Source of the DNA: Verrucomicrobiota bacterium
GTDB lineage: Bacteria > Verrucomicrobiota > Verrucomicrobiia > Chthoniobacterales > JAFAMB01
Direction of reading: 5' to 3'
Assembly: GCA_019246215.1 (NCBI GenBank)
Contig: JAFAQT010000031.1
Span: forward strand, 1 to 44,092
DNA length: 44,092 nt
Shown: positions 16,162 through 28,211 of the stretch, piece by piece
How the letters are laid out: each line of letters starts with the position of its first letter
How positions within the stretch are numbered: position 1 is the first letter of the stretch
Notes under the pieces: generated by a model
What the model was told of the DNA's origin: nothing
The model's input: only the letters and a program-made list of their open reading frames with translations
The model's database searches: none
Program-made: the position numbers and the translations under genes

Positions 16162-17205
16162 CTATGTTCCAAGTCCCAACGCTTCGTTCCAGCCATTCAT
16201 GATATTGAAACACTGGATCGCCTGCCCGGCGGCTCCCTTGACAAGATTATCTTCTGCGGACATCAAAATGATTCGCCCTGTCCGCGGATCAACCCGCCAG
16301 GCAATTTCCAGACGATTGGTGCCAACCACGTTTTTGAGGTCCGGATATCGAGTTAACCCCAGCAATCGGACAAACGATTCAGAGCCGTAGGCAGTCTCGT
16401 AGACTTCTTCCAGAGATTTGGGGCTCACCCCGGTGACCGACTCTGCATGAGTCGTCGTTATGATTCCACGGCTCAGCGGGATCAAGTGTGGTGCGAATTG
16501 AATGATCACCGGCTCTTTGGCAACGCTCGAGAGTTCCTGCTCGACTTCCGATAAGTGCCGGTGCAAAGGCAGCCCGTAGGGTCGGGCGCTCTCGTTGCAC
16601 TCGACAAAAAGCAAATCCATTTCCGCTTTGCGCCCAGCACCGCTGACGCCGCTCAAGCTGTTTACAACAATACTTGTCAGGCGAATCATCTTTGCGCGAA
16701 CGACTGGCAACAACGGCACCAGAATACTCGTTGGATAACAACCGGGACATGCGATCAATTGGGCGTTTCGAATCTGATCCCGGTAAGCCTCGGGGAGCCC
16801 GTAAACAGAATTCTTCAACAGGCCGGGCACCGGATGCTCTTGATGGTAAAAATACTTGTAGACGTCCGGGTCCTTTACCCGGAAATCTGCACTGAGATCG
16901 ATAACCCTGATCCCCAGTTCCAACAAAGGCACGGCGAACTCGCATGCGACGCCATGCGGTAGCGCCAGAAAGGCGAACTCGATTCCGAGAGACCTCATCA
17001 ATGTCAGGTCAGGGTAGGAGAATTCGAAATTTATCAATGACGAGCGAGGGCCGATCCAACCAAAAACGTCGGACGCTTTTTTGCGCGCGTGCTGGCGCGA
17101 AATGAGGCAACCGAGTTCGACCAAGGGATGTTCGGATAAGCGCTTCACCAATTCCTCGCCCGAATAACCGCTTGCTCCAAAAATCGCTACTTTGGCCTTC
17201 TTCAT
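16162..17205 (-). CDS. argC: N-acetyl-gamma-glutamyl-phosphate reductase
   Basis: Reduces N-acetylglutamyl phosphate to the semialdehyde with NADPH. The start MKKAKVAIFGASGYSGEEL is 25 codons inside the track ORF, giving 347 aa; the Rossmann GASGYSG falls at the right distance from it. The catalytic cysteine is in ACPGCYPTS (about residue 156), and the later HLIPLSRGI and HRHLSE segments match ArgC. It is the first gene of the arg run, with its start 154 nt from that of divergent thrS, so that gap must hold both promoters. I see no obvious ARG box. Confidence 0.95.
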   Translation of the reverse strand: MKKAKVAIFGASGYSGEELVKRLSEHPLVELGCLISRQHARKKASDVFGWIGPRSSLINFEFSYPDLTLMRSLGIEFAFLALPHGVACEFAVPLLELGIRVIDLSADFRVKDPDVYKYFYHQEHPVPGLLKNSVYGLPEAYRDQIRNAQLIACPGCYPTSILVPLLPVVRAKMIRLTSIVVNSLSGVSGAGRKAEMDLLFVECNESARPYGLPLHRHLSEVEQELSSVAKEPVIIQFAPHLIPLSRGIITTTHAESVTGVSPKSLEEVYETAYGSESFVRLLGLTRYPDLKNVVGTNRLEIAWRVDPRTGRIILMSAEDNLVKGAAGQAIQCFNIMNGWNEALGLGT

Positions 17206-17359
17206 GATGGTGTTCGTGTCGTGCACCAGGGACCCGGTCAGTATAGCTTTTGGCGGGCTGGTAGAAAAACCAAAACTCAAAACTCAATTTTCAGAAATTC
17301 TCAGTTTTTCCCTCTGGTCAGCTCCTTTCGGCACGTGTATTTTCCCACCCCTTCAAACC

Positions 17360-19237
<1,878 letters not shown>

Positions 19238-19266
19238 GTGCACGGCGGGCACCCCGGATGCACTCT

Positions 19267-19283
19267 GAGGAGATAGGTTTATT
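19267..19283 (+). promoter_or_regulatory. infC: infC ribosome-binding site and ATT start codon
   Basis: GAGGAGAT at 19267-19274 lies 6-8 nt before ATT at 19281-19283. No ATG, GTG or TTG lies in frame between the upstream stop TGA (19266-19268) and the start of IF3 homology. Translation from ATT gives a normal IF3 N-terminus (QQQQIRVNGRIRAREVRVI). E. coli infC also uses AUU, the basis of its autoregulation by IF3. Confidence 0.7.
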
Positions 19284-19862
19284 CAGCAACAGCAGATTCG
19301 AGTCAATGGTCGAATTCGCGCACGCGAAGTGCGGGTTATTCTGGGAACAACCAACGAACAGTTGGGGATAATGAAATTGCAGGATGCCCTGCGAAGAGCC
19401 CAGTCCATTGGGCTTGATTTGGTCGAGGTTGCTCCGACTGCAAGTCCCCCAGTTTGCAAGATCGTCGATTTTGGAAAATACAGGTACGATCTGTCCAAAC
19501 AGGAGAAGGATCGCAGGTCAACCGCCTCAAAGCTTAAAGAGATCAAGTTCCGGGTTAATATCGATCCGCACGATTACGGCATAAAGGTTCGACACGCGGA
19601 ACAATTCCTCGATAGGGGCAACAAAGTGAAGTTCCAGCTCCAGTTTCGCGGCCGCGAAATGAGCCACAAGGAATTAGGCGACCTTCTAATGCGACGTTTG
19701 AAAGATGACCTCTCAACAATGGGACAGGTGGAGATGGAACCCAAGTTGATGGGAAAGAGCATCAATATGACAATGTCCCCTCTTCCTGTGGCAAAGCGGA
19801 AACGAAAATTCACCGTCGAGGACGAAGAGCTCCTCCCAGACCCGTCCGATACGGAAATATAA
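19281..19862 (+). CDS. infC: Translation initiation factor IF-3
   Basis: IF3 binds the 30S subunit and checks the start codon. From ATT 19281 the protein is 193 aa: N-domain with RVNGRIRAREVRVI, EQLGIMKLQDAL, DLVEVAPTASPPVCKI and DFGKYRYD, a linker, and a C-domain with KEIKFRVNIDPHDY, HAEQFLDRGNKVK and FRGREMSH. The track start (GTG 19329) would cut off the conserved first strand. A short basic-then-acidic tail ends the protein. It follows thrS by 43 nt, the classic thrS-infC order, but rpmI-rplT, which normally come next, are on the opposite strand near 27.4-28.1 kb. Confidence 0.95.
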   Translation: MQQQQIRVNGRIRAREVRVILGTTNEQLGIMKLQDALRRAQSIGLDLVEVAPTASPPVCKIVDFGKYRYDLSKQEKDRRSTASKLKEIKFRVNIDPHDYGIKVRHAEQFLDRGNKVKFQLQFRGREMSHKELGDLLMRRLKDDLSTMGQVEMEPKLMGKSINMTMSPLPVAKRKRKFTVEDEELLPDPSDTEI

Positions 19863-20052: not shown

Positions 20053-20589
20053 ATGGCTGACACCCAAATTATTCTGAAAGAAAATGTTCCCGGTCTCGGC
20101 GCCGAGGCCGAGGTCGTTAAAGTCCGTAAGGGCTTTGCGCGAAATCATCTGATTCCTACTGGGAAAGCCTACGAGGTGACTACCTCTAATCTCAAGCGTT
20201 TGAACCACTTGAAGGGTGTCCGGGCAGAGCGCGAAGCCCGAGAGCTTAATGATGCCGAGGATTTCGCCCGCAAGATCGGAAAACTAAAGCTCGGATTTAC
20301 GCTAGAAACCGGCGAGACCGGAAAAGCCTTCGGCTCGGTGACGACCAGAGATATCGAGGAGAAGCTTCAGTCGGAGTTCGGCATCACCATCGACCGACAC
20401 AAAATCGAATTGGAGCGGCCAATAAAGGATAGCGGCGAAAAAGAGATCTCAATCAAGCTTCACCCCGAAGTTGTCGCAACATTGAAGATCGAAATTAAAT
20501 CGTCGACTCCAGCTGCGCCGGTTCGCCAGGAGCGCGAATCGGTTGAAGCGAAACCAAGAGCAAAAAGGAAAGCCAAACCCGGCGCCTGA
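20053..20589 (+). CDS. rplI: Large ribosomal subunit protein bL9
   Basis: A 178-aa bL9 from ATG 20053 (MADTQIILKENVPGLG), 20 codons inside the track ORF. The N-terminal RNA-binding domain shows EVVKVRKGFARNHLIPTGKA; the long helix and C-terminal domain (GKAFGSVTTRDIEEKL, IELERPIK, LHPEVVATLKIE) follow. The last 25-30 residues are a basic, low-complexity extension (AKPRAKRKAKPGA) beyond the usual 149 residues. It is 6 nt upstream of dnaB, the common rplI-dnaB pair; rpsF, ssb and rpsR, often found with them, are absent here. Confidence 0.95.
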   Translation: MADTQIILKENVPGLGAEAEVVKVRKGFARNHLIPTGKAYEVTTSNLKRLNHLKGVRAEREARELNDAEDFARKIGKLKLGFTLETGETGKAFGSVTTRDIEEKLQSEFGITIDRHKIELERPIKDSGEKEISIKLHPEVVATLKIEIKSSTPAAPVRQERESVEAKPRAKRKAKPGA

Positions 20590-27382: not shown

Positions 27383-27754
27383 TCAGGCGGCGCTTTTCCG
27401 ATCTAACGCCACGGCAGCTTTGTCCAAAAGAGCCTTGAATGTCGCCTCGTCGGTGACAGCCAAGTCAGCCAGGACCTTGCGATCAACTTCTATTTTGGCG
27501 GCGGCCAGCCCTTCGATAAAACGGCTGTAGGTCGTGCCAAATTGCCGGCAGGCAGCGTTGATTCGCAGGATCCAGAGGTTTCGAAAATTGCGTTTTCGGG
27601 TCTTACGGTCACGATAAGCCCAATATTTCGCTTTCATGGTAGCGTCTTTGGCATACCGAAAAAGTTTGGAGCGACGCCCTCGGTATCCTTTGGCGCTGTC
27701 GAGAACTCTTTTGCGGCGTTCTCTACTCGCTGGCGCATTCGTTGCTCTAGGCAT
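27383..27754 (-). CDS. rplT: Large ribosomal subunit protein bL20
   Basis: A 123-aa bL20 from ATG 27754 (MPRATNAPASRERRK), five codons inside the track ORF. Basic N-terminal RNA-binding tail with RVLDSAKGYRGRRSKLFRYAKD, then RDRKTRKRNFRNLWI, RINAACRQFGTTYSRFI and LNRKVLADLAV-like EVDRKVLADLAV. It sits between rpmI and pheS, its normal neighbours. No L20-binding pseudoknot leader was recognised. Confidence 0.96.
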   Translation of the reverse strand: MPRATNAPASRERRKRVLDSAKGYRGRRSKLFRYAKDATMKAKYWAYRDRKTRKRNFRNLWILRINAACRQFGTTYSRFIEGLAAAKIEVDRKVLADLAVTDEATFKALLDKAAVALDRKSAA

Positions 27755-27870
27755 ATTTATGGTCGGCAATCGCCGAATCCTTACGCACAGGTTGTTTCAC
27801 AATTCGTCCTCCGACCTCACCTGTTGCATCAGTCCGAAGGTTTCGCGCAGGTGGAGAAAGTTGGCCGCTT

Positions 27871-28080
27871 TTAGTGGAACGGCAGGTTTTCTTTTATCCG
27901 CGCTACATCAGTTGAATCCAGCACCTCGGGCTTCGCAAGATGGCGTTTGCGCTTTGCGCTCTTGGACACCAGCAAGTGTCGACGGCCAGCGTGGCCGCGC
28001 AACACTCTGCCGGTTGCCGTTATTTTGAAGCGCTTTGCCACTGCTTTTTTTGTTTTCCGTCTCGCTATCGGTTTTGGCAT
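27871..28080 (-). CDS. rpmI: Large ribosomal subunit protein bL35
   Basis: A 69-aa bL35 beginning MPKPIARRKTKKAVAKRFKIT at ATG 28080; the 45 extra N-terminal residues of the track ORF are unconserved. GHAGRRHLLVSKSAKRKRHLAKPEVL is the usual basic core, and the length fits the family (about 65). It is the first gene of the minus-strand rpmI-rplT-pheS-pheT group, with about 116 nt to rplT. Confidence 0.95.
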   Translation of the reverse strand: MPKPIARRKTKKAVAKRFKITATGRVLRGHAGRRHLLVSKSAKRKRHLAKPEVLDSTDVARIKENLPFH

Positions 28081-28211
28081 AGAGAGCGTGGAATCTATAC
28101 TCTTGGAACCAGTTCGCAATAAGAAAACGACGGGCAGAGAAAGCCGCCAGGCGGCGCATCTTCCCGCTTCGCGCGGCGGCTTGGAAGCAAAACGGGGAAG
28201 CTTTCCCCTAC

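Follow-up and report, generated by a model that had tools for sequence, protein, structure and literature searches.

The infC gene of the DNA stretch analyzed here (44,092 nt; hereafter the window) is very probably translated from the AUU codon at position 19281, with negative feedback by its product, translation initiation factor IF3, as in Escherichia coli. The start at ATT 19281 is confirmed at the level of the sequence; initiation at this codon in the cell, and its repression by IF3, we infer. The window comes from a soil, Chthoniobacterales-like bacterium (assembly G000, 443 contigs), and the relatives compared with it are MAGs of Verrucomicrobiota, many of them titled Chthoniobacterales. 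We compared infC across 242 genomes of the phylum, 152 of them from the order; the family of the window (f1) comprises 10 genomes from four genera.

On the plus strand, thrS is followed by infC and then by rplI (Table 1); rplI is also the gene after infC in the window's family. The infC gene is present in a single copy in the genome, and solved IF3 structures align with residues 7-171 of its predicted product. The downstream gene, rplI, also starts with ATG in the relatives of the window's family. The rplT gene is located away from infC (27428-27748, minus strand) and lies together with rpmI at 27428-28081, near pheT and on the strand opposite to infC. Neither rpmI nor rplT was found 3' of infC in any locus of the order with at least 1.3 kb of downstream sequence.

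Table 1. Coordinates of the features distinguished around infC in the window
Feature	Position	Strand	Basis or remark
thrS reading frame, upstream of infC	17192-19237	+	TIGR00418, 667.5 bits; stop codon 19235-19237
GGGTGCC within thrS codons, putative distant pairing partner of the hairpin loop	19168-19174	+	Covariation in the family
Hairpin 5' arm, GAGTGCA	19236-19242	+	Predicted fold
GGCACCC in the hairpin loop, proposed to pair with 19168-19174	19248-19254	+	Covariation in the family
Hairpin 3' arm, TGCACTC	19259-19265	+	Predicted fold
Shine-Dalgarno (SD) sequence GAGGAGAT	19267-19274	+	Duplex of -9.2 kcal/mol, 7-nt spacer to ATT; conserved in the family
Predicted infC start codon, ATT	19281-19283	+	No other near-cognate codon lies at SD distance in the interval from the in-frame stop to the conserved IF3 N-terminus
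infC coding sequence (193 aa), translation initiation factor IF3	19281-19862	+	TIGR00168, 187.4 bits; PF05198, PF00707
GTG, first canonical codon in frame, rejected as start	19329-19331	+	Without SD; cuts into the IF3 N-terminal domain
rplI (bL9), downstream of infC, ordinary ATG start	20053-20589	+	TIGR00158, 125.7 bits

The infC frame opens after TGA 19266-19268 with the codons GGA GAT AGG TTT ATT (19281) CAG CAA CAG CAG ATT CGA GTC AAT, and continues with GGT CGA ATT CGC GCA CGC GAA GTG (19329). Between this stop codon and GTG 19329 it contains no ATG, GTG or TTG. The SD core is GAGGAGA, and the spacer of 7 nt is counted from the paired bases to ATT 19281. The corresponding duplex energies at other codons are +0.1 (GTG 19329), -2.2 (ATT 19296) and -2.5 kcal/mol (ATT 19314), all calculated with the usual anti-SD, which was assumed because no 16S rRNA gene was found in the window's own assembly. 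An equally strong SD at a distance of 4-10 nt, whatever codon follows, occurs at 0.9% of all window positions. Three further codons were rejected as starts: (i) ATT 19296 and (ii) ATT 19314, for which the SD is distant or weak, and (iii) AGG 19275, which reads AGT or GGT in relatives and is closed off by a stop codon in genus g4.

Alignment of the infC upstream regions of relatives, the check suggested in the first-pass annotation, placed ATT in the same column, behind a conserved SD, in 10 of the 10 genomes of family f1. In five of them a stop codon precedes ATT by two codons (e.g. GGAGATAA GGT ATT), and therefore no start is possible further upstream there. No better canonical start was found in the relatives of this family; two carry a TTG directly after the thrS stop codon, with a poor SD. 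The start ATT is likewise invariant in families f6 and f7 (25/25 together) and f13 (14/14), whereas the neighboring isoleucine codons are a mixture of ATT, ATC and ATA; since these vary in the third base and the start does not, the site behaves as a start and not as an isoleucine codon. A MAG titled Chthoniobacter flavus, which belongs to f6, likewise has ATT in the aligned position. The first-pass annotation had proposed ATT 19281 as the infC start, with a correctly placed SD and no usable ATG, GTG or TTG between the upstream stop and the conserved IF3 N-terminus; all three proposals were upheld, by the SD, the missing canonical alternative, the extent of the profile match (see below) and the relatives.

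Across the order, 119 of the 152 genomes have no in-frame ATG, GTG or TTG upstream of the conserved asparagine (within 30 codons, or back to the stop codon). When ATG, GTG, TTG, ATT, ATC, ATA and CTG were allowed to compete on SD strength with the codon class ignored, this SD-only rule chose ATT, ATC, ATA or CTG for 180 of the 199 distinct infC genes having an SD. For the control genes, taken from the loci carrying them and mostly from outside the window's order, the same rule chose ATG (50/51 for rplT and 40/43 for rpmI). Most families of the order start infC with ATH or CTG, and nearly all families outside the window's class with ATT, ATC or ATA. Canonical starts (ATG, GTG or TTG) were found in f4, f12, f14-f17, f19, f28 and part of f35; their presence in several lineages indicates that the poor-start device is dispensable. 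On a tree of IF3 built without the N-terminus, the states ATH, CTG and canonical require 9 changes within the class (a count from one short protein on an unrooted tree). What is kept is thus the class "poor start codon", and not one particular codon. Retention of the class while the codon itself drifts agrees with the negative feedback by IF3 described in E. coli. A start that wanders among AUU, AUC, AUA and CUG, and sometimes to ATG, GTG or TTG, makes it possible to separate selection on the codon class from selection on a single codon, and the data set supplies natural replicates with which to ask under what conditions IF3 feedback pays off.

Two families of the data set have less distinct starts. 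In f5, loci such as L183, L142 and L248 have putative ATA or ATC starts that follow a structured leader and lack any SD; many putative ATH starts of this family have no SD, so the start call is weaker there. In four f9 loci (L002, L004, L005 and L023) no clear infC start was seen, either canonical or near-cognate with an SD.

The most unusual member of the set is f8 (49 genomes), a sister family of f1, for which a CTG start is predicted. The aligned start codon is CTG in 47 of the 49 genomes, TTG in one and CTA in one, and the other conserved leucine codons of these genes are a mixture of synonyms. In most f8 infC genes a stop codon lies just 5' of TTT AAT CTG, and no other near-cognate codon is found at SD distance. 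An ATT is located one codon upstream in the CTA genome and in six of the CTG genomes, forming the tandems ATT-CTG (L191, L206, L212, L214, L234 and L238) and ATT-CTA (L231). The ATT-CTG tandems are possible intermediates between the two starts: a subsequent change of ATT to AAT would move the infC start one codon on, to CTG. Such a handover pattern argues for the retention of a poor start codon. Our literature search found no paper linking a CTG start codon with infC.

In the window, 43 nt separate thrS from ATT 19281, and they contain a hairpin (19236-19265) adjoining the SD. The fold of this region is not unusually stable (z -0.73); the arms of the hairpin co-vary between relatives (GAGTGCA/TGCACTC, GAGTGA/TCACTC and GAGCG/CGCTC). 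Its loop can pair with thrS codons, and the predicted pairing covaries in the family: GGGTGCC/GGCACCC in the window, GGAGCTG/CAGCTCC in L024, GGGGCGT/ACGCCCC in L113, and GGGAGTTG/CAGCTCCC in L117, L118 and L123, with one mismatch in L020 and L029. Over the family, the own partners pair at -15.0 kcal/mol compared with -12.2 kcal/mol for swapped partners, a difference reached in 0.0001 of permutations; after near-identical genomes were merged, the own pairing ranked 2 of 720. At L113 (near 385-410) thrS appears to end prematurely and, relative to other members of the family, has a 7-base insertion at its 3' end, yet the loop-thrS pairing is kept. The structure before infC was not seen in f6, f12 and f13.

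Family f8 has no thrS upstream of infC. There, approximately 130 nt before CTG form a hairpin with a loop that pairs to a downstream segment, and in a second pseudoknot (GAGTG/CACTC) the pairing is into the loop of a hairpin adjoining the SD. An example of this leader is L188:1199-1341 (minus strand), with which 46 further f8 loci were aligned; a promoter-like CTTGCC...TACAA occurs upstream. Among these 47 sequences, changes on both sides of a pair were found in 99 cells, compared with 45 in shuffled controls and at most 43 in slid controls, and in the first hairpin 10 of the 11 pairs show such double changes. A covariance model of the leader (R1) scored 84 bits on an f8 member excluded from its building, and gave weak full-length matches in the right place in L019, L124, L119 and L133. 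Its match in the window region (11.5 bits) skips most of the model and is not by itself evidence of homology. Relocation of the leader together with rpmI-rplT was also considered, and no R1 match above noise was found upstream of rpmI. In wide-window duplex tests, which are noisy, the first pseudoknot was significant in both f8 and f5 (about 0.001 each); the second was not, and one distant f8 control window reached 0.012.

These structures point to a possible second layer of control that can be put to the test. Our tentative proposal, which may well not hold, is that infC of Chthoniobacterales carries two stacked controls: (i) a poor start codon, whose class would be kept while AUU changes to AUC or AUA, or to CUG via AUU-CUG tandems, and (ii) a pseudoknotted RNA absent from Rfam and adjoining the SD, which in the window would be made partly of the 3' end of thrS and, in families that have lost the upstream thrS, would have turned into a free leader with its own promoter. 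The two together would make up a new cis-acting regulator of IF3 synthesis.

It is unlikely, in our view, that infC is controlled chiefly by the upstream RNA, i.e. the hairpin with its loop-thrS pairing or the pseudoknotted leader, with the start codon secondary. Both the covariation of the long-range pairing in the window's family and the strong covariation of the f8 leader speak for such control, as does the gene order: in loci of the order with sufficient downstream sequence rpmI-rplT is never found behind infC, and the structure is therefore not readily explained by an L20 circuit serving that operon. However, f6 and f13 show no evident structure of this kind, yet the ATT start is kept there, and the SD is unpaired in the centroid fold predicted for this part of the window.

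In the preferred reading, that of feedback through the start codon, AUU 19281 would be the infC initiation codon, placed by the SD. IF3 destabilizes initiation complexes at codons other than AUG, GUG and UUG, and translation of infC would therefore drop when free IF3 is plentiful and rise when it is scarce. The predicted IF3 of the window, in its alignment with solved IF3 structures, has the equivalents of E. coli Y75, R99, R112 and R147, with R116 replaced by Q and R168 by K; these E. coli residues, including five arginines of the C-domain, serve codon discrimination. Three of the five arginines are present, which favors the feedback, and the two replacements weigh against it. For E. coli, IF3 is described as repressing its own AUU-started gene, repression being abolished by the change of AUU to AUG (Butler 1987, as cited in PMC5472188 and PMC1780047), and IF3 feedback has been cited for other bacteria too (PMC5472188, PMC13009471). 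The AUU start probably lets IF3 limit its own production in this bacterium. Self-limitation through ATT had been put forward in the first-pass annotation, and the drift among ATT, ATC, ATA and CTG across the order strengthens it.

An alternative that we regard as improbable is that AUU serves only to hold IF3 at a low, constant level, without feedback. The lineages with canonical starts would agree with this, as feedback is evidently not essential in them, and their SD is on the whole weaker, as would be expected if they lowered expression by other means, although the SD comparison between canonical and poor-start lineages is biased because starts elsewhere were partly chosen by SD. In f14, f15, f16, f17 and f19, which belong to other orders of the window's class, infC starts with ATG or GTG and has almost no SD; codon strength and SD strength behave there as if they traded off. 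Against a constant level stand two points: (i) the drift of the codon stays inside the set rejected by IF3, and (ii) discrimination against AUU is a general property of IF3 in E. coli, from which some feedback follows if IF3 is active.

Initiation at GTG 19329, which would give an IF3 of 177 residues whose N-terminal domain is missing its first strand, is highly improbable: this codon is the first ATG, GTG or TTG in frame, but it has no SD, reads GTC or GTA in some relatives, and as a start would cut the conserved domain, removing conserved residues that align with solved IF3 structures. The TIGR00168 match begins at 19287, upstream of this codon, and the protein from GTG 19329 scores 171.4 bits, 16 bits fewer than the 187.4 bits of the full product, entering TIGR00168 at position 19 and Pfam IF3_N at position 13 (first 12 positions lost). 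The earlier statement that this start loses 16 conserved residues is correct as to their number (TIGR00168 covers about 14 of them and IF3_N about 9) but too broad as to conservation, since the first ones (QQQQ) are unconserved beyond close relatives. Annotation restricted to ATG, GTG and TTG would truncate IF3 in this way; that gene finders choose GTG 19329, as the first-pass annotation states, is an expectation based on its place as the first such codon in frame.

The infC gene is the classic AUU-start gene, and that of the window belongs to a known kind; what a specialist might not expect is the drift to CTG and the RNA structure. It shares with E. coli infC the encoded factor, the AUU start, the SD and a thrS gene directly upstream. 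It differs in being followed by rplI, whereas E. coli infC is followed by rpmI-rplT, and in the hairpin with thrS-loop pairing that precedes the SD; autocontrol was proved in E. coli and is deduced here. Non-canonical infC starts are also found in Streptomyces (ATC; PMC5472188), Bacillus subtilis (ATT; PMC1805508, PMC6097659) and Staphylococcus aureus (AUA, by ribosome profiling; PMC13009471). Those of S. aureus and Streptomyces come from the same codon set, but differ from the window in codon and phylum, and the S. aureus start is backed by start-site profiling, whereas that of the window is predicted from sequence. B. subtilis shares the ATT start with the window, but has an infC-rpmI-rplT operon with an L20-interacting leader, whereas in the window rpmI-rplT lies elsewhere on the minus strand and no leader is recognized by Rfam. 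The described L20 leader was rejected as a candidate for the window, as it gave no Rfam match and rpmI-rplT is not downstream of infC. Searches with Rfam gave no match in the window, nor at infC in 20 relatives, except for one sub-threshold match. This match was to the fluoride riboswitch, near infC in a relative of another class (L280:653-709, minus strand), and scored 25.4 bits (gathering threshold 34).
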